DNA from: Lewinella sp. LCG006
GTDB lineage: Bacteria; Bacteroidota; Bacteroidia; Chitinophagales; Saprospiraceae
DNA length: 64,000 nt
Direction of reading: 5' to 3'
Assembly: GCF_040784935.1 (NCBI RefSeq)
Contig: NZ_CP160680.1
Coordinates: forward strand, 6,243,802-6,307,801
How positions within the stretch are numbered: position 1 is the stretch's first letter; the number at the start of each line of letters is the position of its first letter. Positions 27,444 to 59,174 of the stretch are shown here, piece by piece. The translations under genes and the position numbers were made by a program. The notes under the pieces are model-generated. The model ran no database searches, was not told the DNA's origin, and worked only from the letters and a program-made list of their open reading frames with translations.

Positions 27444-27455
27444 ATAGATTACTTC

Positions 27456-40710: not shown

Positions 40711-40870
40711 GACTTGTTCTGCTGGGTCAGTTTGGTGGGAAAATTGATGCATTATCGACCACGCGAAGCCTTTTTTGAGGAGCCTAGCCATAGCTAAGCG
40801 ACTTAAAAAAGGCACAGTGTGGGAAGATAAGGCGCGATTTGCCCCCGAAATGATCCCAGCAGAACAAGTC
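40711..40870 (+). repeat. MITE-like palindromic repeat family B, copy 1
   Basis: 160 bp with long inverted ends (GACTTGTTCTGCTGGG and CCCAGCAGAACAAGTC; including flanking TTA/TAA the match is 19 bp). An inner stem GCCTTTTTT / AAAAAAGGC surrounds CTAGC-CATA-GCTAA. The second copy is at 59015. The end coincides with the TAG stop of the gene at 40870. Confidence 0.85.
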
Positions 40871-42237
40871 TAATAGCGCAAATAACACCTTACCCCAAAT
40901 TGCACTGCCGAGAGGCCACCAAAAGGCGCTTCCTTGCTTGGCCATCCCGTGAGATGGCGCTGATATTGAAGTGTAGCTTCCCAATGCTGTGCAAAGCGAT
41001 AACGCAAGCTGCTGTTCATACTCAATTGCCATCTTTTAGCCTCAATCGGATAGGGATCACTAAAGGAATTGGTAGTCGGATCCAACTCATAGACCGACAA
41101 AACAGAATCGTACAAATCAACCCGTAAATCACTGATATCTAGTGAAGGCTCAGCCACTACCGCCGACGCATTTTCTAAAACAGCAGTAGCATTGCTAATA
41201 TAACTCCCCTGCACCGCCAGCCCTAGAGTAATTCTTGGCGACAGTTGATAAAGACTTCCGAGGTAAAGATTCCAACGGCTGGTTTGTATGTTCTGAAAAG
41301 CCAATGACCGCTCTACCGCGTAGCCACTCCCCAATGCTCCTGAAAATTCTTCTGCTAAGGCCCTATCTGCATTGTTTCCGATCAAAAGAGAACGCTGATT
41401 AAACTGGTATTGCACTCCAAGCTCTGCAAGCCACTTCTTTGTAATATCACGCTGAAGCCCTATCCCGCCAGCGACGCTGTGGTAATCCGTGGTCGCTAAG
41501 GAAAAACCTCCTTGGCCTTCCAGATAGTAATGCCAGGGGCTAATGGGTTGTACTTTGGAAGGCTGAATAGGCAACAGGAAGTCGGATCCCGAGCTCTCGG
41601 GAGGAAGTCGGAAGTCGGAAATAGCCGGTAACTGTTGGGTCACCCAAGTAGCGGATTCCGAAGGTGTTGTCGTAGGAACCAATGCAAGCGCTGGCGTTTC
41701 AAACGAAACCTCCTCCTCCGTATAAACACCTTTTACAGGGGCTATCGCATGACTACTTTCTTCTTCGAGAAGAGGACCATTTACCATGATAGGATCTGTT
41801 TCCGCAGCGGTGTTGCTATGATGATCCGCATTGTTGGCAATCGATAAAGCAACCGCGGGCGCATCCACCTGATCAGTATTCAAGGCTGCTACAAATGGAT
41901 TGATGCTTACTTCCTCCGTAGGCTTATCCTCTGAAAAAGAAGATTCCTCCGTAGGCGTAACATCCTCATATTGCTTGCTTTGAGCAGTGTTATTGGATGT
42001 TGTAGAGGCGACAACGGCCTCCTCTTTTTCAACGATAGGCACTGAGGGCTTGCCCGTGTCTTTACTAAAGAGATAAATGTTTAGAAAAAGAATAGCAAGG
42101 CCGGCAAGGCCAGCCCACCACCAAATGACCGCACGACGCTTCTTTTGTGGCATCGCTTGATCCAACTGCTTTTCCATCTGTAGCCAGGCATTATCAATCA
42201 ATGCCGGATCTAACTTTCGGTTATTATTATCCTGCAT
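40870..42237 (-). CDS. Membrane-anchored protein with C-terminal beta-barrel, paired with ECF sigma factor
   Basis: 455 residues. An N-terminal cytoplasmic part of 35 residues (DPALIDNAWLQMEKQLDQAMPQKKRR), one transmembrane helix (VIWWWAGLAGLAILFLNIYLF), a long acidic low-complexity linker (about 60-215), and a C-terminal domain ending in outer-membrane-like strands (QFGVRCYLRY). This architecture follows ECF sigma factor genes in Bacteroidota and probably works as a sensor or anti-sigma-like partner. Its ATG overlaps the end of the sigma gene by 11 bases, implying coupling. Confidence 0.75.
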   Translation of the reverse strand: MQDNNNRKLDPALIDNAWLQMEKQLDQAMPQKKRRAVIWWWAGLAGLAILFLNIYLFSKDTGKPSVPIVEKEEAVVASTTSNNTAQSKQYEDVTPTEESSFSEDKPTEEVSINPFVAALNTDQVDAPAVALSIANNADHHSNTAAETDPIMVNGPLLEEESSHAIAPVKGVYTEEEVSFETPALALVPTTTPSESATWVTQQLPAISDFRLPPESSGSDFLLPIQPSKVQPISPWHYYLEGQGGFSLATTDYHSVAGGIGLQRDITKKWLAELGVQYQFNQRSLLIGNNADRALAEEFSGALGSGYAVERSLAFQNIQTSRWNLYLGSLYQLSPRITLGLAVQGSYISNATAVLENASAVVAEPSLDISDLRVDLYDSVLSVYELDPTTNSFSDPYPIEAKRWQLSMNSSLRYRFAQHWEATLQYQRHLTGWPSKEAPFGGLSAVQFGVRCYLRY

Positions 42238-42820
42238 ACTGGCTACTATGATTTGATGCTTGATTCATTAATATTTTCAACTTTTGCCGAGCATTGGACA
42301 AATGCCATTTGGAAGTGCCATCGCTAATTCCAAGTCGCTCTCCAATTTCTACATGCGTATAACCCTCAACTGCATAAAGCCAAAACACTTCTCGAGTAGC
42401 TTTAGGCAATTTATCAATTAGGCCCACCATATCTTCAAAATACAACTGATGCAATGCAGAGGTAGAAGTAGGCGCATCCCAATCTTCAACGGGTAAAAAG
42501 CGTACTTTTTTATCACTTTTCCGGTAGTAATCAGCGATACTATGAAACACCAACCGACGAATCCACCCCTCCAATGATCCTGCGAAGTTGAAGGTGTGCA
42601 ATTTGGTAAAGACCCGCAAAAATCCTGAGTTCAAGATTTCCACAGCTTCTTCTTCCGTATTGGCATAACGCTGACACATCCGATACATGGTCGGAAAAAA
42701 CTTGCGGTATAACAGCTCTTGAGAACGGCGATCGTTGTTGACGCAGCCCTCTACTAATACCCGCTCATCATGTTGGTCGTTGTGTGTTGCCAATGAACCG
42801 ATGATAAATGACATCTCCAA
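42227..42820 (-). CDS. ECF-type RNA polymerase sigma factor
   Basis: 197 residues with sigma region 2 (ELLYRKFFPTMYRMCQRYANTEEEAVEILNSGFLRVF, then GWIRRLVFHSIADYYRKSDK) and region 4 (IDKLPKATREVFWLYAVEGYTHVEIGERLGISDGTSKWHLSNARQKLK, a clear helix-turn-helix). No region 3. An internal ATG two codons on (MSFIIG) is an alternative start. It heads a likely three-gene unit with the overlapping beta-barrel gene; the gene at 42844 precedes it closely. Confidence 0.93.
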   Translation of the reverse strand: MEMSFIIGSLATHNDQHDERVLVEGCVNNDRRSQELLYRKFFPTMYRMCQRYANTEEEAVEILNSGFLRVFTKLHTFNFAGSLEGWIRRLVFHSIADYYRKSDKKVRFLPVEDWDAPTSTSALHQLYFEDMVGLIDKLPKATREVFWLYAVEGYTHVEIGERLGISDGTSKWHLSNARQKLKILMNQASNHSSQYAG

Positions 42821-42843
42821 TAAATCTCAAAGATGTTGATGGA

Positions 42844-43890
42844 TTAAAACAGCAACCCCAGCGAAAATAAAAATCGCTGATAGGTAACATTACGGTATTC
42901 TATATTCCCATTAAATGGGCGTTCTTGTACATAATAAGCATCCTGAAGACGGTAGCCCAAACCAATCGTAAAGTTGGACTTTTCATTAGCCCCCAGACGT
43001 AATCCTACTTCAGGATGGATCATCCAACCACCTTCGGCAGTCGTTACACCCTGGCTTTTGTTAGTAAGGGCAAAACCATAACCAGCATTCAGCCCAAGGT
43101 AAGGTGCCACGATACTTTTACTCAAGTAACCGCGGTAATGCCCGAAGACACTGAGAATCGACTCTCCGTCCTCCAAATCATAGGCATCATAACTCATTCC
43201 TAAACCCACTCCTACCATTCGCTTGAACTGGTAGCCCATGATATGTTGGATGTTAAAGCCAATAGCCGATTGCGTAATCGTTCTTTCTTCGAAACCTGGC
43301 GTGAAAAAAAACTGCTCTGCTCGTTCTCTTTTGCCAAAGGAAAAAGCAAAACTCGTCGTATTAAACCAACCTTCTTCCCTGAAATCATACGTGGGCTTAC
43401 GGCGCTCAAATGCTGGTTTGTCGGTATCAGGTTTTTCCGGCAGGTATTCACTTCCACGCTTTGGACGTGGCATATTGTAGGTGATTTCTTTTACTTCCGT
43501 GTCCATCAAGACAGCTATCGTACCAGATTTTAGCTTAACCCTCATTTCTCCATCCGGTGAATAGGATTTGATATACCCTTCATAGACGGTACCATCATTT
43601 AACGTAACATTACTGACAACCTTTGTTTCTTCGGCTACAGGAAGGGTCGTTTGCCAGGTTTCATTTTCAGCGACAGGCAGCTGCTGAATCTGCTCAATGG
43701 CTTCCAACGGGTAGGTTTGTATGATCTCGTCTTCTGCTCTTTTGAAAACGATCTTGTTATCCTCCGTGTAATTAATAATCGTGCCTGGCACGACGACGCC
43801 ACTTCGCAGGTGTAAAACGTCACCAGATTGCGCAGATAATACCAGCGTAAGCACAGAGAAAGCAACCAAACAGGTGATCTTATTTATCAT
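42844..43890 (-). CDS. Exported protein with SH3-like N-terminus and beta-barrel C-terminus
   Basis: 348 residues with signal peptide MINKITCLVAFSVLTLVLSAQ. Two short beta modules follow (VLHLRSGVVVPGTIINYTEDNKIVFKRAED and VTLNDGTVYEGYIKSYSPDGEMRVKLKSG), each resembling the other, then an outer-membrane-like barrel (about 175-348) ending in FLFSLGLLF. No named family. It ends 23 bases upstream of the sigma factor, so these genes probably form one transcript. Confidence 0.75.
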   Translation of the reverse strand: MINKITCLVAFSVLTLVLSAQSGDVLHLRSGVVVPGTIINYTEDNKIVFKRAEDEIIQTYPLEAIEQIQQLPVAENETWQTTLPVAEETKVVSNVTLNDGTVYEGYIKSYSPDGEMRVKLKSGTIAVLMDTEVKEITYNMPRPKRGSEYLPEKPDTDKPAFERRKPTYDFREEGWFNTTSFAFSFGKRERAEQFFFTPGFEERTITQSAIGFNIQHIMGYQFKRMVGVGLGMSYDAYDLEDGESILSVFGHYRGYLSKSIVAPYLGLNAGYGFALTNKSQGVTTAEGGWMIHPEVGLRLGANEKSNFTIGLGYRLQDAYYVQERPFNGNIEYRNVTYQRFLFSLGLLF

Positions 43891-44120
43891 TCCAAAAACA
43901 GTTTTATAATCAAGTCAACCTCTTCGCACAGCCAAGACAGAAGGCAAGTACAAAAGGGTTGGGTGAAAAAATAAATTTTACGGTATTAGTAATTTAGCTT
44001 CGCTGATCGTCGCAAGCTCCTCAAAGTTGACGGAATCAGTTATTTTTTTTCCGTCACTTACAGAATCAAGCTACCTTTACGGCGAAATAAATACGTACCC
44101 TACACAATATAAGGTTTCCT

Positions 44121-45521
44121 ATGATCCTACGTCATTTTCGCTTGTTTCTTAACTTGCTGTTCCTTCTCCCTTTCAGTCTCTGGGGACAATTACTTATCGA
44201 AGTAAACAATCTTCCATCTACAACTCCTCCAGGAAGTGAAGTGTATATTGCCGGAAGTTTTAACAATTGGTCACCAGACAACAACAGCTACATCCTGGCA
44301 GAAACCAGCCCCGGCAACTACAGCATTGAGCTGGATATCGCTGCGGGTACCTACGAATTCAAGTTTACTCGTGGAAGCTGGCAGACGGTAGAAGGCACCA
44401 GCAGTGGCGGCTTTCGCCCCAACCGGCAAATCACTTACAATGGTGGCCAACAAACTGCTACCCTGATCATTGAGGGTTGGGAAGGGCTAAGTAATGGCGG
44501 AGGTACTGCAGCGCCTAACGTAGAGATTCTTTCCAACAACTTCTACATGCCGCAGCTCAACCGGAATCGCCGGATTTGGGCTTATTTGCCTCCCGATTAT
44601 TACACTTCTAACCGAGACTACCCCGTCTTGTACATGCACGATGCACAAAACCTTTTTGACCAAAGCACCAGTTTCGGAGAAGAATGGGAAGTGGATGAAA
44701 GCCTCAATGAACTTTTCAGTCAGGGCGACCCCGGCATTATCGTGATTGGCATCGAAAACGGTGGTGGTGAACGCATCAATGAGCTGACGCCCTGGGCCAA
44801 CCCTACCTACGGAGGAGGCGATGGCGCTGCTTATGTAGATTTTATTGTACAAACCCTGAAGCCCTATGTAGATGCTAACTATCGTACCAAGAGTGACCAG
44901 CCCAATACAGGTATTATGGGCTCTAGCTTGGGTGGTTTGATCTCCCTTTATGCCTGTATTCGCCATCAGGATGTTTTTGGGAAAGCAGGCGTTTTATCTC
45001 CTAGCTTATGGTTTACCAACGACATCTATGATTTCGTAAACACCACCGGAAAACAGGCAACGCTGAAAATTGCTTTAGTTGCCGGAGAGCAAGAATCCAG
45101 CACAATGGTGGCTCAATTACAAGCCATGTACGACACGCTCGTTAACGCTGGCTTTAGCAGTGAGGAATTAATGATTACCACTCACGCTGACGGTGAGCAC
45201 AGCGAATGGTATTGGCGCCGTGAATTTCCTGGCACCTACCAGTGGTTGTTTCAAATTGTAAGTGTGCTCCAAGGCTCGCTGGAGTTAAATGGCATTAGCT
45301 ACTGGCCTAATCCAGGAACCGATTATTTATTTATCGACGGCCTTCCAGATGCTGATTCCTGGCAAATGGCTATTTATAATACAGCGGGACAGCATGTTAG
45401 AGAAGCCTCCTTCAGTAATGCGCAAATTGATGTCAGTGCCCTCACTTCCGGAAACTACTTCATTGTCATTTGGAACAACAACGGAGAATGGAGCGTCATC
45501 AACTTTCATAAAAACAGGTAA
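44121..45521 (+). CDS. Secreted esterase with CBM-like N-terminal domain and T9SS sorting domain
   Basis: 466 residues. A signal peptide (to about residue 21, LWGQ) is followed by a glycogen-binding-like beta domain (about 22-115; VYIAGSFNNWSPDNNSYIL is the CBM48/20-like core). Next comes an esterase D-type alpha/beta hydrolase (about 135-385) with nucleophile motif MGSSLGGLISLY and a catalytic His in THADGEHSEWYW. The C-terminal 75 residues (YWPNPGTDYLFIDG to the end) form a type A type IX secretion sorting domain. Probably cleaves acyl or feruloyl esters on polysaccharides outside the cell; substrate inferred. Confidence 0.88.
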   Translation: MILRHFRLFLNLLFLLPFSLWGQLLIEVNNLPSTTPPGSEVYIAGSFNNWSPDNNSYILAETSPGNYSIELDIAAGTYEFKFTRGSWQTVEGTSSGGFRPNRQITYNGGQQTATLIIEGWEGLSNGGGTAAPNVEILSNNFYMPQLNRNRRIWAYLPPDYYTSNRDYPVLYMHDAQNLFDQSTSFGEEWEVDESLNELFSQGDPGIIVIGIENGGGERINELTPWANPTYGGGDGAAYVDFIVQTLKPYVDANYRTKSDQPNTGIMGSSLGGLISLYACIRHQDVFGKAGVLSPSLWFTNDIYDFVNTTGKQATLKIALVAGEQESSTMVAQLQAMYDTLVNAGFSSEELMITTHADGEHSEWYWRREFPGTYQWLFQIVSVLQGSLELNGISYWPNPGTDYLFIDGLPDADSWQMAIYNTAGQHVREASFSNAQIDVSALTSGNYFIVIWNNNGEWSVINFHKNR

Positions 45522-45651
45522 ATAGAAGCTATCGACAAATAAAATTCCGTATTTAACACTCAAGTATTTCTTTTTATACCGGCAAATTGTTATTTTTAAA
45601 ACAATAATCACAATAAGAGACAGGTGACATGTCTTTTAAAACCTATTGCCG

Positions 45652-45906
45652 ATGAATATTACATTTTCAGAACTCCGAAACATTAAGCACCAGATGCCAA
45701 GTGGTAGCGTAAGCCGTATTGCGGATGAATTAGGTATCAACGAGCAAACGGTAAGAAATTACTTTGGGGCCAACAAATTTGAAGAAGGGGCCCTTACCGG
45801 TCAACACCTTCAGCCAGGACCAGAAGGTGGTGTTGTAAATTTAGAAGACACATCGATTTTAGAAATGGCCCAGCGAATTATCCAAGAAAACAAGTTAGGC
45901 ATGTAA
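45652..45906 (+). CDS. Small helix-turn-helix protein
   Basis: 84 residues from the ATG at 45652. The segment GSVSRIADELGINEQTVRNYFGANKFEEG is a clear helix-turn-helix, followed by a flexible glycine-rich stretch and a C-terminal helix (EMAQRIIQENKLGM). A DNA-binding role is likely; target unknown. It precedes a structured region and the convergent nusB. Confidence 0.72.
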   Translation: MNITFSELRNIKHQMPSGSVSRIADELGINEQTVRNYFGANKFEEGALTGQHLQPGPEGGVVNLEDTSILEMAQRIIQENKLGM

Positions 45907-45915
45907 ACGATCATC

Positions 45916-45976
45916 CCACAAAGTAAGATTCCTCCCCTCTCCAACAACTTTTGTGGTCAGAAAAGGGAGGAATCTT
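45916..45976. terminator. Bidirectional terminator with interlocking hairpins
   Basis: AAGATTCCTCCC (45925-45936) pairs perfectly with GGGAGGAATCTT (45965-45976) between the convergent HTH gene and nusB. A second pairing, CCACAAAGT (45916-45924) with ACTTTTGTGG (45948-45957), interlocks with it, so the two are mutually exclusive or form a pseudoknot. Confidence 0.6.
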
Positions 45977-45997
45977 CAACGGGAAAAAGCTTTCGCC

Positions 45998-46942
45998 TTA
46001 CTCGCCCTTCAGGCCCCGTCCTTGCTTTTGTACCAGTCCTTGTTCCGTCAGTTGCTTCAGCAAGCGGTCCAATACGCCATTGACGAAGTCTTTACTTTTA
46101 TCCGTACTGTAAAGCTTAGCCACCTCCACAAACTCATTGAGGGTAACTTTGGTAGGAATAGAGGGAAAATACAAGAACTCGGCAATGGCCATTTTTATGA
46201 TAATCATATCCAAAATGGCAACCCTCTCAGCGTCCCAATTTTTGAGGTTGGGCTCAATAATGGCCAACAGCTCTTCGTCGGCCTCTACTACTTTTTCAAG
46301 TAGCTCCTGACCGAACTCCGTAATGGTCTCATCCTCTGGTTCATAAGCTTCGAGGAAGTCTTCTTCTACCGGTAGCGCTTTGATGGTTTTTTTCATCGCG
46401 CCTACCACCAGGCTCTTATCATCCTGCCACAATGGAAACTGATCCTCCATCATGGAAATGAAGGTTTCATTGTTGATCAAGAAACGATACAACTCTAAGA
46501 GAATCTCCCGATGGTTATCAGTATTGCTTTCCGACTGCTTGATATAAAGCTGGTATTCTTCCGTTTTCGAGAAGGCGATATAAAGCTTACGGATTAAATC
46601 TGCATCCAAGTGCTGGCCAAGACGATAACGTCCGTGCGCATTGGTGAGGGCAAAATTCTTTGCCAATGATTGTGTGGCTTCATTATTGGCAAGCTTTGCC
46701 GAGAATTCCTGATCCGCTTCGGTAGGTCGTAATTTCCCGTCTTTGCGAATTTTATCCTGTCTGGCATACTCTGCTACTCGCATGAAAGCCAACAAATTCA
46801 ACAGATACAGCTTAAATGAATCATCCACCATCCGGCGATAATACTGAACGGCAGCCTTGACACTGGTTGTCGTCTCTTGTTCACGATTTTTCGCGTACAA
46901 GACCTGCATAACCTTAATCCGGACGTTTCTACGGCTTAACAT
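45998..46942 (-). CDS. nusB: Transcription antitermination factor NusB, long Bacteroidota form
   Basis: 314 residues, about twice the length of E. coli NusB. The N-terminus (SRRNVRIKVMQVLYA) and C-terminal region (WDAERVAILDMIIIKMAIAEFLYFPSIPTKVTLNEFVEVAKLYSTDKSKDFVNGVLDRLL) are clear NusB; the middle (about 30-215) is the helical insertion seen in this phylum. It binds boxA RNA with NusE during rRNA transcription. Single gene, ending at the shared terminator. Confidence 0.95.
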   Translation of the reverse strand: MLSRRNVRIKVMQVLYAKNREQETTTSVKAAVQYYRRMVDDSFKLYLLNLLAFMRVAEYARQDKIRKDGKLRPTEADQEFSAKLANNEATQSLAKNFALTNAHGRYRLGQHLDADLIRKLYIAFSKTEEYQLYIKQSESNTDNHREILLELYRFLINNETFISMMEDQFPLWQDDKSLVVGAMKKTIKALPVEEDFLEAYEPEDETITEFGQELLEKVVEADEELLAIIEPNLKNWDAERVAILDMIIIKMAIAEFLYFPSIPTKVTLNEFVEVAKLYSTDKSKDFVNGVLDRLLKQLTEQGLVQKQGRGLKGE

Positions 46943-47030
46943 GATTTCAAGTAACGTTTAATGAACGGGCAAAGTAGCTCCGCTAAAATTCCTGCAAAGG
47001 AAAGCATTCTCCGTTTATTATCACAAAGAA

Positions 47031-48641
47031 TTAAGAACCACTAAGGAAATCCGTCTTAATACTTTCAAAAGAAGGAATGTTTTTATAGTGCCATTTCTTT
47101 AATACCACCCCTGCTTTCATCAATACTGGCCCTGGATTGGAACGAACGATCGTCTTCAGCAAAATGTCGTCCGCCATAAAGAATGGTATCTTGGTTCCCA
47201 GTGCTTTCTGAAAACTAGCAATCCGCTTAGGGTCTGAATAAGCCGTGACAGCGTATACCTTTACTCCACCAGCGGCGGCGGCTTCCATGACAGGCAGAAA
47301 ATCATTGGTCCAACGTGCTACATAGTCGGGATCCCAATCGTAGACGGTGGTCACCACCTCTCTTTGTTCAACTTTCGTCAAACGCCGCTCTAACAAGGTG
47401 TCCAATGCTGTGATTACCGTATCAATGACAAAAATAGAGTCAGGAACAGTAGTGGTCTCCTGATGCTCCGTCCCGTAAAGTCGGTACGCAACAATCATCA
47501 TGCTTGGCCCTGACTCCTGCAAAATGTCAGAGGTGACATCATTACCCCTGAGGTCACTCACCTCAAAGTCACTGATTTTTGTTCGCGCTACTTCAGGTTC
47601 TGATTTCACCTGATCGAGCTCCCATTCTTCAGCAGGGTACTTGGCATACTCTTGCATATAAACATCAAAGGGTAATTCCACTGTTTCACCCGTAGCCTTG
47701 TTGGTCATTTTGTAAGCCAGCACTTTCACATTGGCTTCTGCCTCTTCTTCCAAAGCTTTACGCTCAGCAATGTTAGCACCTTCCCGGAATGGGCGGAAGT
47801 CAACTTCAGGTATATCCGTTACATAATTGCTGAAGGAATAGAGTGCGAGTACCACAATGCTCCCCAATATCGCCATATTTTTGCTCAGGTATTCTACACC
47901 AACAATTGCGGCCAAAAATACCAGTATCCGCCAGCCAATCGTATAACCACTAAGATAGACGGTAAGAATAGAAATAGCTACTGCTAAACCAACGGCCAAG
48001 GCGCGCTGGCTCCCTTTGGTAAGTTCATGGAATGACTTCGTTGCGAAAAGAAAAATCAGGCCGGGGATCAGCAGAAATAAATCTTTGAGGAAAGACACCT
48101 TGGGTTCCAATTTGAGAAAATCCCCAAAACAACCACAGTCGGTCACCTTCATACTTGTAGGTTCGTAGCTTCCCCATTGTCCAAATTGGAAGAAATTCAC
48201 ACCATCCGGAACATAGCCTGTAAGGTAGGTGAACCCCGTCAGGAAGGTGAAGAAAATGACCAGCAGAAAAAAGGCCCAGGCCGTAAACTTCCGCATCACT
48301 CCGATCAATAAATTGATACCAAGGAAAATTTCAAAAACGATCATGAGAACGGAAAAAGCTACCGCATACTCAGCGAGTGCCGGAAACATAGGAGCCAGAA
48401 ATGCTGCTTTAGTTCCTGCAAAAGTAGTTTCAAACTCGGCAAAATATTGCTCCATCTTGTAAGCCGTACCCAAGGGGTCTACTGCTTTAACCAAGCCGGA
48501 AAACACGAATAGGCCCCCCACGAAATTCTGGAGGAGGCTGATCAGGAAATTTTTGATCAACTTGCGATCCATTGCTTTTTGCCCTCCTGTGAGTACAAGC
48601 GCAAAAGCAGCTAGTCCGATAATGAGTGTAGTCAGATTCAT
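47031..48641 (-). CDS. DoxX/MauE-like membrane protein with thioredoxin-like C-terminus (BT_3928 type)
   Basis: 536 residues. The first 270 form about eight transmembrane helices with the DoxX-like start (NFVGGLFVFSGLVKAVDPLGTAYKMEQYF) and a cysteine pair DCGCFGDFLKL typical of MauE/DoxX relatives. The soluble C-terminal region (about 350-536) has a thioredoxin-like layout (TSDILQESGPSMMIVAYRL, then WHYKNIPSF) without a CXXC. Gene order with DUF1599 is as in other Bacteroidota. A redox or thiol-handling role in the envelope is suggested but unproven. Confidence 0.8.
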   Translation of the reverse strand: MNLTTLIIGLAAFALVLTGGQKAMDRKLIKNFLISLLQNFVGGLFVFSGLVKAVDPLGTAYKMEQYFAEFETTFAGTKAAFLAPMFPALAEYAVAFSVLMIVFEIFLGINLLIGVMRKFTAWAFFLLVIFFTFLTGFTYLTGYVPDGVNFFQFGQWGSYEPTSMKVTDCGCFGDFLKLEPKVSFLKDLFLLIPGLIFLFATKSFHELTKGSQRALAVGLAVAISILTVYLSGYTIGWRILVFLAAIVGVEYLSKNMAILGSIVVLALYSFSNYVTDIPEVDFRPFREGANIAERKALEEEAEANVKVLAYKMTNKATGETVELPFDVYMQEYAKYPAEEWELDQVKSEPEVARTKISDFEVSDLRGNDVTSDILQESGPSMMIVAYRLYGTEHQETTTVPDSIFVIDTVITALDTLLERRLTKVEQREVVTTVYDWDPDYVARWTNDFLPVMEAAAAGGVKVYAVTAYSDPKRIASFQKALGTKIPFFMADDILLKTIVRSNPGPVLMKAGVVLKKWHYKNIPSFESIKTDFLSGS

Positions 48642-48652
48642 ATTAAAATGGA

Positions 48653-49207
48653 TTATTGTGGATCAACAGACCCATCCTCTAATAGTATTAAAGCGAAAAC
48701 AGCGTAATTGATGATATCGCGAAAATTGCCTTCCTGCCCTTCAGAGACGAGGGTCAAACCCTGGTTGTCTTCAATCTGCTTGATTCTAAGCAATTTAGCG
48801 AGCATCAAATCCGTGATAGACGTTAGCCGAAGCTCCCGCCATACCTCTCCGTAATCGTGGTTCTTTTTTTCGAGTAAGGCGCGGGTATTTCGAACCTCCG
48901 TATCATAAAGTGCAGCCACTTCTTCAGCACTCAGATCAAGTCCACTATCAGCAGGCAAGCGCAGCTGGATGATCGCCAGTATACTGTAATTGATCAGTCC
49001 TTTGTATTCTCCATCTATAGGATCACTTACCAATTGCACCCCTTTTTCTTCAATGCTGCGCAAGCGTTTAGCTTTGATAAAAAGCTGATCCGTCAAGGAA
49101 CTAGGGCGAAAGATTCGCCAGGAGGAGCCATAGTCCTGGTGCTTGTTCAGGAAGATTTCCCGACAGCTGGACATGATTTGATCGAATTGCTGAAGTGTGC
49201 TTTCCAC
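48653..49207 (-). CDS. DUF1599 protein with internally duplicated domain
   Basis: 184 residues made of two similar halves: RNKHQDYGSSW-type motif HQDYGSSWRIFRPSSLTDQLFIKAKRLRSIE in the first, and HDYGEVWRELRLTSITDLMLAKLLRIKQIE in the second, each followed by an INYxIxAII/L helix. This is the DUF1599 (nucleotide-modification-associated) family, possibly binding nucleotides. It ends 11 bases before the DoxX-like gene, so the two are co-transcribed. Confidence 0.88.
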   Translation of the reverse strand: MESTLQQFDQIMSSCREIFLNKHQDYGSSWRIFRPSSLTDQLFIKAKRLRSIEEKGVQLVSDPIDGEYKGLINYSILAIIQLRLPADSGLDLSAEEVAALYDTEVRNTRALLEKKNHDYGEVWRELRLTSITDLMLAKLLRIKQIEDNQGLTLVSEGQEGNFRDIINYAVFALILLEDGSVDPQ

Positions 49208-49321
49208 TTAGCGGTTTTTTAATTTGTTTTGCAAATGTAACAACTCCTTCTTCATTGGCTGCAAATGAATTGCAAAATATAGTTAACAAAATTCTTCTCT
49301 TAGTACTTTTGTGAGCGTATA

Positions 49322-49433
49322 AAAATAAGGTGATCCAATTTGGGCTTAGTAAAAAAAGATAAGCAACTGACTGAAATGAAGTTGCGTTCTTTTTCTTACT
49401 AAGCCTTGAAACAAATTGGATCATCTTATTTTA
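49322..49433. repeat. Long multi-arm inverted repeat between divergent genes
   Basis: Outer arms AAAATAAGGTGATCCAATTTG (49322) and its complement ending at 49433 enclose GGCTTAGTAA / TTACTAAGCC and, in the centre, GCAACT / AGTTGC. Altogether it could form a hairpin of about 110 nt. It lies between the divergent DUF1599 and YigZ genes, where a small RNA, a terminator or a mobile palindrome are all possible. Confidence 0.65.
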
Positions 49434-49466
49434 GCTCGAATACTTTGGCAATGTAAGCAGAGAAGG

Positions 49467-50153: not shown

Positions 50154-50158
50154 TCAGA

Positions 50159-51625: not shown

Positions 51626-52124
51626 GTGAGCGCACATTAAGTTGATGAAATAATTAATTAATTGCTGACATAGGAAAACCCTATCTCTGGACCTTGCGGT
51701 CAGAGAATAGAAGTTTAGCGCCAATTACATTGGCCGTCAGCACAGCTTACAGTGTGCTTACTCACTTGGGTAGATACCCTATTGCCTTATACCAGGCACA
51801 AAGGGATAGTAGATGGAGGTGGGTCAAGGGGGACTCTCACGTCTCTATCTAAAATTTTTTCAAACGGGGTGGAATGCTTATCAGAGTGAGGCGCTAACCT
51901 ACTTTAAAAAATCGAATTCAGTCTTGTTGATCTATTCTATAGTACAAAAAACGGCTTTTTTAAGTACATGGTCTATATTTAAAAGAAATAAAAATGAACT
52001 TTAAATATATTTTTATTTGAAAAATATTTAAATAATCACATACGAAAGGCAATGCCAATGATGCATGATCTGGCTTTTACAAAAAGACTTGGTCGATGTT
52101 TTGAATCCGCGAGATGGAAAAATC
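51626..52124. other. Intergenic region without recognised gene
   Basis: Nearly 500 bases with no convincing frame. The part to 51800 carries small palindromes (GGGTAGATACCC at 51769-51780, CAGCACAGCTTACAGTGTGC nearby). The part from 51900 is very AT-rich, with TTAAATATATTTTTATTTGAAAA features resembling a promoter for the minus-strand acyltransferase. I see nothing else that I can name. Confidence 0.4.
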
Positions 52125-53462
52125 CTAAATGAACAATCCAGCAATTGCGCCCGTCAGGAAGCAAGCAATTGTTCCACCAATCAAGGCTTTGATACCGAAA
52201 GAAGTCAGGGTATTTCTTTGACCGGGAGCCAACGAACCTATACCACCAATCTGGATACCAATAGAGGCAAAATTCGAAAATCCACACAAGGCGTAGGTCG
52301 CAATAATTACAGACTTCTCATTTTTCAACAGTCCCTCTACTAGAATCCCTTGAAATTGTTCGTAAGCAACAAATTCATTAATTACGGTCTTCAGGCCCAA
52401 TAGCTGACCGACAACGGTGATGTCTTCAAAAGGCACCCCCAAAATCCAGGCAAAGGGCGCAAAAACCATTGCCAGTAAATAAGTAAAACTAAAACCTTCA
52501 AAGCGCCCTCCGGTAGAAAGTGCGATTTGTTCATTCCAATCACTGACGTTCGGATTCACCCACGCTACCATGCCATTAAGCAAATCGGTTAGATTAAGAA
52601 AGATTTCATTCATCATGAAAATCATGGCGGTAAATACCAACAACATAGCACCTACATTGACGGCCAAGCGCAGACCATCAGTTGTACCACGCGATATGGC
52701 GTCTAACAGATTGGTGGCATCTCCATCAGCCATTTCAAGCTGTTTGCTGATATCATCATCCCTTTCGGTCTCTGGATAGAGCATCTTTGCCGCAACAATT
52801 GCGGCCGGAGCTGAAATGATAGAAGCTGTAAGTAGGTGCTTAGCAAAAAAGAGTTTTGTCGCTTCATCAGTTCCACCGAGATAGCCTACATAAGCAACGA
52901 AAACACTACCCGCAATAGTAGCCATACCCCCCGTCATCAGACAGAGGATTTCCGACTTGGTCATTTTCTCCAAGTAAGGCTTGATCACCAAGGGAGCTTC
53001 CGTTTGACCGATAAAGACATTCGCCGCAGCCGCCAGGCTCTCAGGGCCAGAAAGCCCCATGGTACGGGTAAGTAGCCAGGCAAGGCCATAAACGATCTTC
53101 TGTAGAATACCTAAATAATAGAGCACCGCCGTCAGGGCGCTAAAGAAAACAATAGTGGGTAATACCTGAAAAGCAAAGATGTAGCCGAAGGAACTCATGT
53201 CTGTGACAATATTGCCAAACATGAATTGAGAACCTGCCGCGGTAAAGGCAATCACGCTGGTAAAACCTTTGGATATCCAGTCAAAGACACTGCTTACACC
53301 TGGCACGATGAGGATAAAAAAGGCCAGCAGCAGTTGTAAGCTCATGCCGATAGCAACTAAACGCCAATTGATAGCTTTGCGATTACTGCTTAATAAATAG
53401 CAAATACCGAGTAAAACAGTTACTCCGAGGCTGGCGCGGAAAAGATCGTTCAAAAAGTCCAT
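52125..53462 (-). CDS. Concentrative nucleoside transporter (NupC/CNT family)
   Basis: 445 residues with about ten transmembrane helices. The signature GQTEAPLVIKPYLEKMTKSEILCLMTGGMATIAGSVFVAYVGYLGG holds the nucleoside and cation sites, and FSNFASIGIQIGGIGSLAPGQR closes the family pattern. Imports nucleosides with a proton or sodium ion. Divergent from uridine kinase (53590), with which it forms a pyrimidine nucleoside salvage pair. Confidence 0.95.
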   Translation of the reverse strand: MDFLNDLFRASLGVTVLLGICYLLSSNRKAINWRLVAIGMSLQLLLAFFILIVPGVSSVFDWISKGFTSVIAFTAAGSQFMFGNIVTDMSSFGYIFAFQVLPTIVFFSALTAVLYYLGILQKIVYGLAWLLTRTMGLSGPESLAAAANVFIGQTEAPLVIKPYLEKMTKSEILCLMTGGMATIAGSVFVAYVGYLGGTDEATKLFFAKHLLTASIISAPAAIVAAKMLYPETERDDDISKQLEMADGDATNLLDAISRGTTDGLRLAVNVGAMLLVFTAMIFMMNEIFLNLTDLLNGMVAWVNPNVSDWNEQIALSTGGRFEGFSFTYLLAMVFAPFAWILGVPFEDITVVGQLLGLKTVINEFVAYEQFQGILVEGLLKNEKSVIIATYALCGFSNFASIGIQIGGIGSLAPGQRNTLTSFGIKALIGGTIACFLTGAIAGLFI

Positions 53463-53589
53463 ACGGTCAATTAGTTCCAGCCAAAAGTAAGTAAACTATT
53501 TGGAACAAGAGGAATGATTTTTCTTTTCCCTTATTCGCTTCATCCTCTTGGCAGAAAGCCTTACTTTTGGCCGAACCTACCTTTAGAAG

Positions 53590-54219
53590 ATGAAACCATT
53601 CATCATTGGCATTACTGGCGGCAGTGGATCCGGCAAAACGACTTTTATTCGTTCCTTGCGGGAGCACTTCTCCGAAGAACAGCTTTGTGTGATCTCACAG
53701 GATGATTACTATCTTCCCCGTGAAGAACAAGAAAGTGACCCTATGGGCATCACTAACTTTGATCTACCGCAGTCTATAGACAAGAAAGCGTTCATCAAAG
53801 ATGTAGGGCGGCTCATTAAAGGAGAAATTGTAGAACGGCAGGAGTATACCTTTAATAATGAAAAGGCGACTCCCCAAATGCTGACCTTTCGCCCTACTCC
53901 TATTATAATAGTAGAAGGGCTCTTCGTCTTCCATTTTCGCAAAATGCGCGAGCAACTTGATCTAAAGATCTACCTCCACGCCAAGGAAAACCTGAAGGTA
54001 ATCCGCAGAATAAAAAGAGACCGGGTAGAACGTAATTATCCTCTGGAAGATGTACTCTACCGCTACGAAAACCACGTCTTACCTGCCTTCGAAAAATACA
54101 TCAAACCCTATCAGGACGAAGCTGATCTGATCATCAACAACAATGTCCAGCTTCACATGGGGCTGCGCGTCGTGCAAGGGTTCCTGGATCACTATATTGC
54201 TAACAATAGCAAATCCTAA
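53590..54219 (+). CDS. udk: Uridine kinase
   Basis: Phosphorylates uridine and cytidine with ATP or GTP in pyrimidine salvage. 209 residues with P-loop GITGGSGSGKTTF near residue 6, ISQDDYYLPRE carrying the base-specificity Tyr and Asp, NFDLPQSID, and IIVEGLFVFHFRKMREQLDLKIYLHAKENLKVIRRIKRDRVER as the lid. The stop overlaps the convergent beta-propeller gene by four bases. Confidence 0.94.
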   Translation: MKPFIIGITGGSGSGKTTFIRSLREHFSEEQLCVISQDDYYLPREEQESDPMGITNFDLPQSIDKKAFIKDVGRLIKGEIVERQEYTFNNEKATPQMLTFRPTPIIIVEGLFVFHFRKMREQLDLKIYLHAKENLKVIRRIKRDRVERNYPLEDVLYRYENHVLPAFEKYIKPYQDEADLIINNNVQLHMGLRVVQGFLDHYIANNSKS

Positions 54220-55109
54220 TCGGCTACAATAGCGATCTTCAAGTCCGGGCTGATCGCCAGGCGAGAAATATTGGAGATATTATAGTAACGCAGATCAGCA
54301 ATTTCTATCCAGTCTTCGTCACGGAAACGGTTGAATTTGTAGAGTTTACTACCACGCCCCATGATGTAAGAGCCATCGGGCAAAACGGCAAAATCCTCTA
54401 CGCCTCCAAGGCTAGAGATAATTGGTTGTGGGGTGATATTGCCTCGACGATAAAGTGAAACCTCCATAATTTGCCAAGCACCTGCCTCGTTGCGTTGCAC
54501 AAATGACAAATTACCATTGGGCAGTTTCCTGATACAGCGCCCTACATCGGTGGCCAGAGGAATAAGTTCATCCGTGTCCACATTTGCCAGAGCTAGATAG
54601 CTAGGGTTGTCCACAACGAAGACCGCTACTTCCTTACTGTTGATCCAACAATAATAACCAATCCCTTGCAGGTACTTGAAAACGGGTTTGCCGTTGGTCA
54701 GACGATCTATGGGGAATTGCCATAAACGGATGACGGTATCGCGCCCAATATATTCCTGACGAATCGCCGAGAAATTATAGAAATCAGGCATTCTAGAGGG
54801 AGAGAACTCGCCTTCAGCGGTTTCGGTTACCCGTAATTTGGTTCGGTCTCTCAAGTTCAACAAATACAACTCTGGCTGCTGCATGGAAGGCAGCTGAGAC
54901 GAGATATACAACTCATCATTCGTAAAGAAGGAAGGTTGATTATTGTATCCGTCAGCATTAAAGGCAGTGAGGTACTGAGGCTGATGGAATTCAAAAACGC
55001 TATCAGATACCTGCTTCATGTTGAAGAGGTAGATATTAGACTGAGGCAGTTGAGCAAATACTGAAAAGCCACAAAAAATAGATACGAAGAAAAAGATGTA
55101 CTTCGTCAT
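54216..55109 (-). CDS. Exported TolB-like beta-propeller protein
   Basis: 297 residues from the ATG at 55109, starting with signal peptide MTKYIFFFVSIFCGFSVFAQ. The body consists of repeated four-strand units (for example NQPSFFTNDELYISSQLPSMQQPELYLLNLRDRTKL and RKLPNGNLSFVQRNEAGAWQIMEVSL) typical of six-bladed TolB-like propellers. Role unknown; likely periplasmic binding. Its promoter is at 55128. Confidence 0.75.
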   Translation of the reverse strand: MTKYIFFFVSIFCGFSVFAQLPQSNIYLFNMKQVSDSVFEFHQPQYLTAFNADGYNNQPSFFTNDELYISSQLPSMQQPELYLLNLRDRTKLRVTETAEGEFSPSRMPDFYNFSAIRQEYIGRDTVIRLWQFPIDRLTNGKPVFKYLQGIGYYCWINSKEVAVFVVDNPSYLALANVDTDELIPLATDVGRCIRKLPNGNLSFVQRNEAGAWQIMEVSLYRRGNITPQPIISSLGGVEDFAVLPDGSYIMGRGSKLYKFNRFRDEDWIEIADLRYYNISNISRLAISPDLKIAIVAD

Positions 55110-55127
55110 AGGTGAATTTCTTTTCCC

Positions 55128-55158
55128 CAAATGTAGCATATCCACTGGTATTTGAAAA
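55128..55158 (-). promoter_or_regulatory. Promoter of the beta-propeller gene
   Basis: On the minus strand TTTT (55158-55155), 19 bases, then TACATTTG (55135-55128) fits the Bacteroidota promoter with a slightly weak -33 box. It is 19 bases upstream of the chosen start codon. Confidence 0.6.
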
Positions 55159-55286
55159 GTCGATGGTACATTAATGACAATTTTCTATCTTATCAAGCAG
55201 TAAAAACGACTTGTCTTGTAAGAATTCGATTAATGATGATGACCATTTTAATCTATATTTGCCAACAATACATAAGTTAGTACACT

Positions 55287-56333
55287 ATGTCAACAGATCA
55301 GGGAAAACCCGTTGGAGTGATTGGTGGAGGTAGTTTTGGCACTGCAATAGCTAATCTTCTTGCCTACAATACAGATGTAATTTTGTATGTAAGGAAGGAA
55401 GAGGTCGTCAAGGAAATCAACCAAAGGCAAGAACGTCATGGTATCATTTTACCCGAAAGGGTAACAGCGACCAACGACCCGGCAGAAATAGCAGCCCGCT
55501 GCCATCTCTTGTTCCCCGTTGTGCCTTCGAGTGGTTTTCGCTCCATGATGCGCGACATGGCCCCTTATTTGAAGCCTTATCATATCTTGATTCACGCGAC
55601 AAAGGGCTTTGATGTTCACGGCATTTCTGAGGCGGAGATTCCCCAGAAAGGCATAACCCGAAGTTCTATCAGTACCATTTCGGAAGTTATCCGGCAAGAA
55701 AGTGTCGTCGTGCGCTTGGGTTGCCTGTCTGGGCCCAACCTGGCTAAAGAAATTCTGGAAGGTCAACCCACCGCCACGCTGATTGCCAGCAAATTCGACG
55801 AAGTCATTTCCGCGGGGAAGGCGGCGCTGAGTAGTCCTATTTTTCATGTTTTTGGTTCGTATGACTTATTAGGAGCGGAATTGGCGGGCGCACTAAAAAA
55901 CACCATTGCCCTCGGTTCGGGTTTACTAAAAGGATACGGATTAGGTAAAAATATTCAGGCCATGCTACTCACCAGGGGCTTGATGGAGATGGTCTATTTT
56001 GGCAAAGCCATGGGCTCTGAAGCCGAAGCATTTTTCGGTACTGCGGGTATTGGTGATCTAATTGCGACAGCAACCAGTAAAAAGAGTCGCAACTATACTT
56101 TCGGCTTCCGCATCGGAAGTGGAGAGTCGCTGGAACAGGTATCTAGTACGATGCCAGAATTAGCGGAAGGGGTGAGAACTTTAATGATCACCCGCCACCT
56201 GGCTAAGCACTACAAACTACGCGTTCCTATTACCGAAATGCTCTATCGAATCGTTTTTGAAGACTTCCCTATCCAAAAAGCAATGGATTACCTCATGACT
56301 TTCCCGTACGATGTTGACGTTGATGTCCTCTAA
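55287..56333 (+). CDS. gpsA: Glycerol-3-phosphate dehydrogenase, NAD(P)-dependent
   Basis: Reduces dihydroxyacetone phosphate to glycerol-3-phosphate for lipid synthesis. 348 residues: N-terminal Rossmann motif GVIGGGSFGTAIANLL, then LSGPNLAKEI near 145-155, the substrate lysine in AELAGALKNTIALGSGLLKGYGLGKN (about 190-215), and GTAGIGDLIATATSKKSRNYTFG in the helical C-terminal domain. A -7-like box TATATTTG lies at 55254-55261. Alone in its direction and followed by YfhO. Confidence 0.96.
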   Translation: MSTDQGKPVGVIGGGSFGTAIANLLAYNTDVILYVRKEEVVKEINQRQERHGIILPERVTATNDPAEIAARCHLLFPVVPSSGFRSMMRDMAPYLKPYHILIHATKGFDVHGISEAEIPQKGITRSSISTISEVIRQESVVVRLGCLSGPNLAKEILEGQPTATLIASKFDEVISAGKAALSSPIFHVFGSYDLLGAELAGALKNTIALGSGLLKGYGLGKNIQAMLLTRGLMEMVYFGKAMGSEAEAFFGTAGIGDLIATATSKKSRNYTFGFRIGSGESLEQVSSTMPELAEGVRTLMITRHLAKHYKLRVPITEMLYRIVFEDFPIQKAMDYLMTFPYDVDVDVL

Positions 56334-56375
56334 TTTTATTTATCTTGCGGGTCTATTTTATTGAAAAACTATAAC

Positions 56376-58865
56376 ATGCGTTTCAACCTATCCACCTTTT
56401 TGCCACATCTGGCTGCCTTAGGTATTTTTATTGCGGCTTCCGTCTTTTATTTTGCTCCTCAGTTCTCTGGAAAAATCATAGAACAAGGCGACGTAATGAG
56501 CTACCGTGGCATGTCACAAGAGCTACGTGCTTACAAGGAAGCAACTGGAAAAGAGGCTTTGTGGACCAACGCTATGTTTGGGGGAATGCCGGCCTACCAA
56601 ATCAACACAATCAGCAGTGGTAACTATGTCAAAAAGTTGGAGCAAGTTGCTCGCATGTTTATCAAGCCACCCGCAGGCCAGTTTATCGCGGCGATGGTAT
56701 GTTTTTATATCCTAATGGTTTTATTAGGTGTAAATCCCTGGCTCAGCGTTATTGGAGCCATCGCCTTTGGTTTTGCTACCAACAACCTGGTCCTTTATGA
56801 AGCAGGGCACGAGACCAAATTACGTACCATTTCGTACCTTCCGCTGGTGGCCAGTGGTATGCTATTGGCTTTCCGAAAACGCTATCTCCTTGGGTGTATC
56901 TTATTTGGTATTGGTTTGGGAATGGACCTTGCTGCCAATCACGTGCAGATGACTTACTACTTCTTTATCACTGTTTTGATATGGGGAGTAGCAGAGTTGA
57001 TCACCAATATAAAAAATCAGACCCTCCCTCACTTTGGCAAGGCTGCAGTAGCACTCATCATTGGCGGTCTGTTAGCACTAGGATCTGCGGCCTCTAACCT
57101 CTGGGTCACCTATGAATACGCCCAGGATACGATGCGTGGTGAACCAATTCTGGAACAAGAAAGCAATGCGGGGCCTACTTCTAGCAGCGAAGTCAATGGT
57201 CTGGACTGGGATTATGCCATGCAGTGGAGCAACAATACCCTGGATGTTTTCGCTGGCTTTATTCCTGGTGTTGTTGGTGGTGGGTCCGTACAACCAACTA
57301 CGAGTGATTCTCCTTATGGACAAACTTTGCGCAGACTGGGCGCGGGACAGGGTAAAACGTTCGATGCGCCGCTTTATTGGGGAGGCCTACCTTTCACAAG
57401 TGGCCCCATCTACTTTGGAGCCATAATGGTATTTTTCTTCCTGATGGGATTGTTTCTCGTAGAGGGGCCCGTCAAGTGGTGGTTAGGCCTTGGTACGCTC
57501 TTCACTATCCTCCTTTCGATGGGTAACAATTTGGAAGGATTTAATCATTTCATTTTTGACTACTTCCCGTTATACAACAAGTTCCGAACGCCTAATTCGG
57601 TACTCAGTGTGACCTCCCTACTGATCCCAATTCTTGCCATATTGGCATTGAACGAAATTTTCAGTGGAAAAGCGGATAAAGCAAAAACACTCAAAGCACT
57701 GGCCATTGGAGGAGGAATAAGTGTGGCCATTGCCTTGTTCTTTGTGGTAGTAGGCCCAGGCATGTTTGATTTTGTGAATCCGCGTGATGCTCAGCAATTT
57801 GGGCAAGCAGATCCTCAAGTCATCCAATCACTGATGACCGCCCTGGCGGATACCCGCGCAGACTTGATGCGTTCTGATGCTATACGAAGCCTGATTCTCG
57901 TGGTCTTGTCTGCAGGTATGGTTTACTTCTTCCTTCAGGATAAAATAAAAATGGTGCCCGTCATCATTGGCCTGGGGGTATTGACGGTTTTTGATCTCTT
58001 TGGCGTAGGGATGCGCTATCTCAACCAAGATGACTTCAAAAGACCCACTTCTGTTGGTCAATACTTTGCACCACGCCCGGTGGATCAGCAGATTCTACAA
58101 GACAAGGATCCTCACTACCGGGTATATGATGCCACCATCAATACCTTCAACTCAGCCCAGCCCTCTTACCACCATAAAACGATTGGTGGTTATCATGCGG
58201 CCAAGCTTCAGCGTTTTCAGGATTTAATTGATCGACATATTACACGTGGCAATCAGGCCGTGCTCAACATGTTGAACACCAAATACTTTATTGTCCCTGG
58301 CCCTGATGGCCAACCTGCGGTTCAGCAAAATCCCGGAGCATTTGGGAATGCCTGGCTCGTAGATTCTATTGTAGTGGTCCCCAATGCCAATGTTGAGATT
58401 GATGGGTTGGAATACCTGCCACTTGATCACGCGGCAGTGGTCAATCAGGAATTTGATGATTACGTAAAAACACTCCAACCTACGGGCCAGGGAGCCGTCC
58501 GCCTGAAAGAATACCGCCCCGATCGTTTGACTTACGAAAGTAATGCCGCTCAAGAAGAACTTGCTGTTTTTTCAGAAATCTGGTATGGACCAAACAAAGG
58601 TTGGCAAGCTTATATCGACGGTCAACCCGTTGAGCATATTCGGGTAAACTATGCCTTACGTGGCCTGAAAATCCCAGAAGGTGTACACGAAATCGTTTTT
58701 GAATTTGCCCCGAGCAAATACTACCTGGGTAAAACGATAGCTACCATCTGTTCCATCACTTTGCTCCTGGCCCTTTTGGGGTATATTGGTTGGATGATTA
58801 AAAACCAAGCACCTGATTTAGTCGCAGAAAGAACTACCCAGACGAGCAAAGGCAAGAAGAAGTAG
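56376..58865 (+). CDS. YfhO-family membrane protein
   Basis: 829 residues from the ATG at 56376 (an in-frame TTG precedes it). About 12-13 transmembrane helices in a GT-C-like arrangement with the early loop QGDVMSYRGMSQELRAYKEATGKEALWTNAMFGGMPAYQI, the acidic residue position of lipid-dependent glycosyltransferases, and a C-terminal soluble domain (about 580-780; VFSEIWYGPNKGWQAYIDGQPVEHIRVNYALRG) typical of YfhO. It may glycosylate lipids or polymers; the reaction is not established. Confidence 0.88.
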   Translation: MRFNLSTFLPHLAALGIFIAASVFYFAPQFSGKIIEQGDVMSYRGMSQELRAYKEATGKEALWTNAMFGGMPAYQINTISSGNYVKKLEQVARMFIKPPAGQFIAAMVCFYILMVLLGVNPWLSVIGAIAFGFATNNLVLYEAGHETKLRTISYLPLVASGMLLAFRKRYLLGCILFGIGLGMDLAANHVQMTYYFFITVLIWGVAELITNIKNQTLPHFGKAAVALIIGGLLALGSAASNLWVTYEYAQDTMRGEPILEQESNAGPTSSSEVNGLDWDYAMQWSNNTLDVFAGFIPGVVGGGSVQPTTSDSPYGQTLRRLGAGQGKTFDAPLYWGGLPFTSGPIYFGAIMVFFFLMGLFLVEGPVKWWLGLGTLFTILLSMGNNLEGFNHFIFDYFPLYNKFRTPNSVLSVTSLLIPILAILALNEIFSGKADKAKTLKALAIGGGISVAIALFFVVVGPGMFDFVNPRDAQQFGQADPQVIQSLMTALADTRADLMRSDAIRSLILVVLSAGMVYFFLQDKIKMVPVIIGLGVLTVFDLFGVGMRYLNQDDFKRPTSVGQYFAPRPVDQQILQDKDPHYRVYDATINTFNSAQPSYHHKTIGGYHAAKLQRFQDLIDRHITRGNQAVLNMLNTKYFIVPGPDGQPAVQQNPGAFGNAWLVDSIVVVPNANVEIDGLEYLPLDHAAVVNQEFDDYVKTLQPTGQGAVRLKEYRPDRLTYESNAAQEELAVFSEIWYGPNKGWQAYIDGQPVEHIRVNYALRGLKIPEGVHEIVFEFAPSKYYLGKTIATICSITLLLALLGYIGWMIKNQAPDLVAERTTQTSKGKKK

Positions 58866-58887
58866 ACAAATTGCATAATGCTATAGA

Positions 58888-58973
58888 CCCTGCCTGCCCG
58901 TGAGGCACGGCCGAGCAGGCAGGGATTGAAAGGATTAGACAGATTTGTACGGATTTTAATAGCTGTACAAATC
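58888..58973. repeat. Two inverted repeats after the YfhO gene
   Basis: CCCTGCCTGC (58888-58897) pairs with GCAGGCAGGG (58915-58924), and GATTTGTAC (58942-58950) pairs with GTACAAATC (58965-58973). The pair probably ends the YfhO transcript; neither is followed by a clear T-run. They sit beside a family B repeat, making a palindrome-rich gap. Confidence 0.55.
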
Positions 58974-59014
58974 CTGTTCTATCCGCTCAATCCACGGCCT
59001 ATCCTGTTTTATTA

Positions 59015-59174
59015 GACTTGTTCTGCCGGGGCAGTTTGGTGGGAAAATTGATGCATTATCGACCACGCGAAGCCTTTTTTGAGGAGCTTAGCCATAGCTA
59101 AGTGACTTAAAAAAGGCACAGTGTGGGAAGATAAGGCGCGATTTGCCCCCGAAATGATCCCGGCAGAACAAGTC
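59015..59174 (+). repeat. MITE-like palindromic repeat family B, copy 2
   Basis: 160 bp, same orientation as the copy at 40711, five differences. Two of them (T to C in the left end and A to G in the right end) keep the terminal pairing, giving GCCGGG / CCCGGC. TATTA lies on both sides (59010-59014 and 59175-59179), possibly a target duplication. No coding frame. Confidence 0.85.

Follow-up and report, generated by a model that had tools for sequence, protein, structure and literature searches.

An IS1182-family insertion sequence in the apical loops of dispersed, probably mobile hairpin elements of Lewinella

Introduction

Insertion sequences (ISs) of the IS1182 family have been described as using palindromes as targets: in Staphylococcus, IS1272 replaces the stem-loop that it enters and TnSha1 deletes part of it, with no target duplication in either case (PMC5678879, PMC4923244). 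According to the first of these accounts, older IS1272 copies have targets that are inverted repeats or are not, duplication of the loop alone is drawn only as a possible pathway (c) in a model figure, and palindrome targeting is mentioned for other IS1182 members, for which no detailed data are given (PMC5678879). Repetitive extragenic palindromes (REPs) are also targeted, by ISs of the IS3, IS110, IS4, IS256 and IS5 families; ISPsy8, for example, lies at the symmetry axis of the REP hairpin with a 3-bp repeat (PMC1525189). Here we analyse a 64,000-nucleotide stretch of the genome of Lewinella sp. LCG006 (the window; contig NZ_CP160680.1, positions 6,243,802 to 6,307,801), which holds two copies of a long palindrome, and we find that related palindromes elsewhere in the same genome carry an IS1182-family IS exactly at the tip of the hairpin, with the loop duplicated and both arms intact.

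Because the published IS1182-family cases, as described, destroy their targets, the way in which IS and palindrome are joined had to be guessed. In this genome, six recent insertions with intact arms reveal the joint base by base and, with the empty copies (six T-type and 20 B-type; subfamilies are defined below) as unoccupied targets, allow recognition of the loop to be tested.

Results

An IS in the loops of six hairpins

The genome that holds the window (G000, a single 7.5-Mb contig) contains six copies of a 1597-bp IS, all within palindromes, identical to one another over their whole length and bounded by perfect 22-bp ends. When one repeat copy is removed, the palindrome is found to be interrupted exactly at its predicted 4-nt apical loop in all six cases and on both strands. 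A copy of the loop flanks the IS on either side as a 4-bp target repeat, and both stem arms are intact (6/6); the duplicated loop is CATA in one case and TAAG (CTTA on the complementary strand) in the other five. Replacement of the stem-loop in the manner of IS1272, with the target deleted and no duplication, thus describes none of the six insertions.

Read as one 513-aa protein, the two frames of the IS score 339.4 bits against the IS1182 cut-off of 270, which neither frame reaches separately (108.5 and 227.6 bits), and the IS also has the inverted repeats at its ends and the short direct repeat expected of an IS1182-family member. The frames of the transposase overlap at a run of A (L029:2189-2247; L-numbers denote individual element loci), identically in the six copies, a layout that likely reflects slippage or frameshifting, and the second frame extends beyond the end of the IS into the host palindrome.

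Five hosts belong to the T subfamily, of which 11 copies are catalogued in G000, and one to the B subfamily, with 21 catalogued copies there. Over their arms (about 165 bp) the T-type hosts differ among themselves by 2-7 substitutions and from empty copies by 2-10, and the filled L087, L052 and L051 are each nearest to an empty copy (L036, L078 and L032); the B-type host and the empty copy most similar to it are separated by three changes. Since the host hairpins differ, the six insertions look independent.

The same genome harbours a second IS1182-family IS (1906 bp, 565-aa transposase, five copies) that serves as a contrast: its 200-bp flanks contain no family end motif at up to two mismatches and no palindrome arms. 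When joined, these flanks fold at -36 to -58, where shuffled sequences average -32 to -58, three of the five lying near shuffled levels and two (L055, L057) 2-3 standard deviations better, whereas the six palindrome hosts fold at -68 to -93 against -41 to -48, or 5-13 standard deviations. A wider survey of genome contigs for the 1597-bp IS returned eight loci, four of them distant archaeal sequences (27-29%) and four matching only through a palindrome arm; at E<=1e-40 the IS was found in none of 149 other genomes sampled from the host's family.

A dispersed family of palindromes

The end motif of the palindromes, TAGASTTGTTCKG, occurs 89 times in the 7.5 Mb of G000 and its reversed control not once; family ends read AGA(C/G)TTGTTC. 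A BLAST search with one window copy gave 90 matches, 12 of which (the query included) cover its full length or miss a single base, with identities of at least 92%. Cataloguing facing ends that lie 30-260 or 1740-1810 bp apart with no more than two mismatches in total yielded 75 pairs in three congeneric genomes, and removal of one with poorly matching ends left 74 elements: 50 in G000 (six of them filled by the IS), 13 in G002 and 11 in G003, or 68 elements of 37-242 bp and the six filled ones. This catalogue is not exhaustive, in that more copies with worn ends exist in G002 and G003. Another 19 + 16 loci have no clean partner end, of which at least six (L043, L079, L105, L122, L127, L130) possess a worn or very near partner; L127 and L130 are counted within the 74. 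Across 40 genomes, G000 included, multiple copies occur solely in G000, G002 and G003; G001, of the same genus, has no end match, and three further genomes have one each.

The subfamilies have their ends in common and not their middles. Subfamily B elements are 164 bp long, or 194-195 bp with an added segment; those of subfamily T (ends TTCGG) measure 165 and 193 bp, and those of subfamily G (ends TAGAG) 162 and 217 bp. Lengths of 131, 186-208 and 242 bp occur in a few others, and eight small elements, 37-75 bp long, have the appearance of truncated versions. The added segment, of about 28-31 bp, lies in one arm of B- and T-type palindromes (L014, L051; judged by length, also L013, L015-L019 and L076), and GGTGATCGC-like sequence also occurs beside a single end in L123. 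Many elements in the three genomes lie within about 5 bp of gene 3' ends and few at gene starts, a count that is biased by the TAG stop within the element end and by crude calling of open reading frames. The intergenic region beside one conserved gene contains a palindrome both in G000 (L051:436-2230) and in G003 (L117:817-1002), of different subfamilies.

Target duplication and mobility

In 65 of the 74 elements, the base to the left of TAGAC equals that to the right of GTCTA (p ~2e-19, for an assumed background of 0.37); position -2 on the left is A in 71/74 and +2 on the right is T in 59/74. The simplest reading of these columns is that a 3-bp ANT repeat likely surrounds AGAC...GTCT, and an ANT target repeat is stated for bacterial IS5 elements (PMC4482050). 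With terminal inverted repeats, this duplication (the ANT frame being our reading of the columns) and, the exact junction aside, empty orthologous sites in G002 for both copies in the window, the palindromes are best read as non-autonomous, IS5-type hairpin elements resembling miniature inverted-repeat transposable elements (MITEs), and are probably mobile.

An autonomous element with the same ends was not found in searches of two DDE transposase families, PF13359 and PF01609, to which these searches were confined. PF13359 gave no match in the four genomes searched. PF01609 has matches in two of three genomes, at 30 loci, and a facing pair of ends (up to one mismatch) surrounds the gene only at the six IS1182 loci, where the ends are those of the host palindrome; the remaining loci have at most single end matches in one orientation, and none has palindrome ends as its own. 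A shorter end pattern likewise gave no partner with the same ends among 100 of the 117 places that it matched. MITEs that lack a surviving parent are common.

The two copies in the window

Copy 1, an unoccupied B-subfamily element (AGAC...GTCT), extends from 40710 to 40871, and copy 2, also unoccupied, from 59014 to 59175, both with the more stably folding strand on the plus strand. The apical loop of copy 1, CATA (40789-40792, plus strand), lies within TAGC-CATA-GCTA; in the copy at G000:C1:1018653-1020427 (L029), this same loop is where the IS sits. Copy 2 is enclosed by a 3-bp target duplication, ATT at 59011-59013 and again at 59176-59178, and so fits the ANT framing; copy 1, with ATT on its left as read from the sequence (40707-40709) and AAT on its right (40872-40874), does not. 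The repeat reaches TAGAC...GTCTA (164 bp), and the unit including flanks is 172 bp with 97% identity between the two copies. Within the window, the 13-base end has four matches at up to two mismatches, all of them exact, against 1.6 expected; as a mere count this is unremarkable, being reached in 9 of 100 shuffles. Syntenic DNA of G002 is without the element at both sites.

An earlier note on this DNA had reported 160-bp copies at 40711-40870 and 59015-59174 that differ at five positions, with a compensatory change near the ends, and both observations hold. The differences number exactly 5/160 (copy 1/copy 2: 40723 T/C, 40727 T/G, 40784 C/T, 40799 C/T, 40858 A/G), and because 40723 pairs with 40858, the double change there, from T-A to C-G, is compensatory. 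The other three are unpartnered: 40727 stands opposite T, the change of C to T at 40784 gains a pair with A, and that at 40799 makes a G-C pair into G-T. No hairpin element gave an Rfam match at the gathering score in a scan of the whole window; copy 1 met one family only, at 25.1 bits (plus strand) and 21.6 (minus), far under its cut-off of 180.

Covariation and strand bias

Covariation, which the earlier note had proposed to look for in additional copies, is present among 19 B-subfamily copies from the three genomes (164-bp columns). Paired cells amount to 96.3%, and both sides have changed in 10 of 68 pairs as compared with a shuffled mean of 3.9; none of 500 shuffles was as high, although related sequences can beat all shuffles even without structure, less so by this double-sided measure. 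Slid registers give 0-4 doubly changed pairs. The G subfamily is almost invariant, with a double-sided change at 1 of 61 pairs. Unpaired changes at the ends, which the same note regarded as counting against its interpretation, do occur, pairing at columns 1/164 being lost in 3 of the 19 copies and at five more of the outer 14 pairs in one or two, yet nearly all cells remain paired.

In 54 of 58 elements of at least 160 bp, one strand folds better than the other by 10-30 kcal/mol; the smaller differences are 9.6 (L058), 9.2 (L108), 8.5 (L109) and 0.6 (L110). When the strand of each mismatch was randomised in 150 trials, the share of trials reaching the observed difference was 2% (L001), 0 (L007, L116), 1% (L119) and 5% (L019) for B elements, 3% for a G element (L074), 5% for a T element (L033) and 6-7% for Family A (a related kind, located below with Family D), as well as 29% and 12% for the 217-bp and 242-bp elements. 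On the better strand, purine-purine and G-T mismatches outnumber pyrimidine-pyrimidine and A-C mismatches by 13:3 in B164 and 16:5 in T165 (two-sided p = 0.02 and 0.03), and by 10:6 in G162, 14:6 in A and 7:3 in D (p = 0.45, 0.12 and 0.34); the ratio is 17:4 in B186, 13:4 in B194, 17:12 in G217 and 30:20 in B242, and B131 has the opposite trend (5:7). Given the strand-biased folding and these ratios, it seems that at least for B and T elements a single-stranded form is of importance, with only a trend in the other types.

A role as RNA terminators was rejected on account of the mixed orientation of the stable strand to the neighbouring genes (18 --, 16 ++, 13 +- and 10 -+; 65 elements were scored, 57 of which have a clear strand). 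With respect to replication, the stable and the G-rich strand coincide in 27 of the 42 elements of G000 (p = 0.09), a count made by hand, with replichore borders set by eye from sampled GC skew, from which we make no claim.

Other repeats in the window

A related kind of palindrome, Family A, has ends GAGCATGTTTGGAGC, for which G000 contains 19 end matches and none for the control; one copy lies at 8695-8848 on the plus strand with TTA on both flanks, and a second, inverted relative to it, at 39052-39205 on the minus strand with TAA on both flanks. The ends of an 881-bp IS5-like element (L134), GAGCCTGTTT, are similar but not identical to those of Family A. A third kind, Family D (49315-49440, plus strand), has close copies in G002 contigs C14 (93%) and C10 (91%) and is absent from the syntenic position in contig C79. 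At 24904-28597 lie two copies of a group II intron in tandem, spaced by about 2.56 kb (two Rfam matches each to RF02012 and RF00029).

Discussion

To account for these observations, we propose that the palindromes are MITE-type, non-autonomous hairpin elements that would be mobilised in trans by an IS5-type (DDE) transposase, and that the dispersed hairpins would act as landing sites for an unrelated IS1182-family IS. The transposase of this IS would act, in the simplest case, on an extruded cruciform and join both IS ends at the flanks of the unpaired 4-nt loop at its apex; the loop would thereby turn into the 4-bp target duplication, and neither stem arm would be lost. We put the probability of this explanation as a whole at about three in four. 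That the IS recognises the folded rather than the linear palindrome would suggest that a transposase of a common type is able to aim at DNA shape. In its most specific form the proposal is tentative, and we consider it somewhat less likely than not: the IS1182-family DDE transposase would read DNA shape and attack both strands at the cruciform tip, with the loop as the duplication, and the landing pads would be mobile hairpins whose one-strand folding, with G-T pairs and conserved purine-purine mismatches, is kept by selection acting on the element as single-stranded DNA or as RNA.

Several observations weigh against this explanation. Five of the six hosts belong to one subfamily, and the loop sequences sampled are consequently only two (CTTA/TAAG and CATA); hosts L049 and L050 are nearest to each other, with two differences and the IS in opposite orientation, and are possibly less independent. 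All six targets contain TAGC-NNNN-GCTA, such that a linear palindromic motif could be what the IS recognises. The flanking base is mismatched in 9 of the 74 elements, copy 1 of the window among them, and the G002 DNA aligned to the two window sites is too diverged to give a clean junction. Finally, because the families searched yielded no autonomous element that shares these ends, it is the target duplication alone that points to an IS5-type mobiliser.

The earlier note took the compensatory change to imply selection on a hairpin or on matching ends. The covariation is real; its cause is less certain, since arm-to-arm copying could restore pairing too, and matching ends are in any case expected of an element with terminal inverted repeats. 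It is possible, if rather doubtful, that compensatory changes arose without selection, through template switching from arm to arm while the quasi-palindrome replicates. This would suit the four of ten compensated pairs for which the sample holds no intermediate (15/150, 48/118, 56/109 and 70/95), but single-side intermediates exist at the other six. Moreover, of eight symmetric mismatches in the B subfamily (seven purine-purine and one A-C), those at columns 22/142 (G-A), 57/108 (G-A) and 58/107 (A-C) are identical in 19/19 copies from three genomes. Arm copying should erase such mismatches, and their persistence argues against wholesale correction of one arm by the other; selection is the cause that we would favour.

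With regard to the IS, a transposase dimer could instead bind the double-stranded motif TAGC-N4-GCTA and cut with a 4-bp stagger, the long hairpin being incidental. The presence of TAGC and GCTA beside the duplicated 4 bp in 6/6 targets is what such a model predicts, and a 4-bp direct repeat is listed for the IS1182-family ISCaa15 of Amoebophilus (PMC3196728). However, the motif (TAGCNNNNGCTA) occurs at 130 sites in G000 (219 for the reversed control pattern), of which 26 are within catalogued empty palindromes, and the motif alone poorly explains why all six IS copies are in palindromes. If only the motif mattered, the chance of this would be ~(32/136)^6 = 1.7e-4, a rough value that uncatalogued palindromes would raise and that ignores longer sequence preferences. 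We therefore consider linear targeting unlikely, and recognition of the folded palindrome the better account.

Alternatively, the IS may have entered a palindrome once or twice, after which the filled palindrome moved as a larger MITE-like unit. The IS orientation is the same in 4/5 T-type cases and the loop in 5/5, and the closeness of L049 to L050 would follow naturally. Composite movement is nevertheless improbable: the six copies of the IS show no difference along their 1597 bp although T-type arms differ by 2-7 positions per ~165 bp, three of the five T hosts are most similar to an empty copy, one host has the extra ~28-bp arm segment, and one comes from another subfamily.

That the palindromes are REP-like repeats (or bacterial interspersed mosaic elements) dispersed by a Y1 (TnpA-REP) transposase would agree with their scattered, mostly intergenic positions and with the Y1 genes of the genus (four matches in G000, 11 across four genomes), but we reject this as hardly credible, in that the 11 Y1 loci show the end motif only at 2-3 mismatches and no facing pair (up to three mismatches) spanning the gene, and in that the main subfamilies are 162-242 bp long as against 20-40 bp for REPs. 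Duplication of flanking bases is not expected from Y1 transposition. The partner suggested by the earlier note, a TnpA-REP-like gene or an IS with these ends, was thus encountered neither at the 11 Y1 loci nor among DDE genes of the two Pfam families; an IS does sit in the family, but it occupies the hairpin loop and its own ends differ.

Our literature searches brought up no report of an IS1182 member that duplicates the loop, and no paper on insertion sequences in Lewinella. As far as these searches show, an IS1182 member that duplicates the loop, leaves the arms intact and targets a probably mobile, covarying hairpin family is new. The covarying, strand-biased hairpins also constitute a natural data set on the full-length palindromy of some bacterial MITEs.

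As in MITEs of IS5-family elements, the palindromes have no evident coding capacity, terminal inverted repeats and an ANT-like 3-bp duplication (ANT being described as consistent with bacterial IS5 in PMC4482050); they differ in pairing over their whole length, in strand bias, in the covariation of one subfamily and in that no autonomous parent was found. With the REP-targeting ISs, the Lewinella insertions have in common a position at the axis of a repeated hairpin and a short direct repeat, but REPs are of 21-65 bases and IS1182 is not among the five families named, whereas the targets here are 164-193 bp long and probably mobile (PMC1525189). There is also a close parallel with IS1272 and TnSha1, which belong to the same IS family by the model used and which target inverted repeats that can fold into a stem-loop. 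Their targets, as described, are unrelated in sequence, whereas those of the Lewinella IS form one dispersed repeat family, with the arms intact and the loop duplicated.

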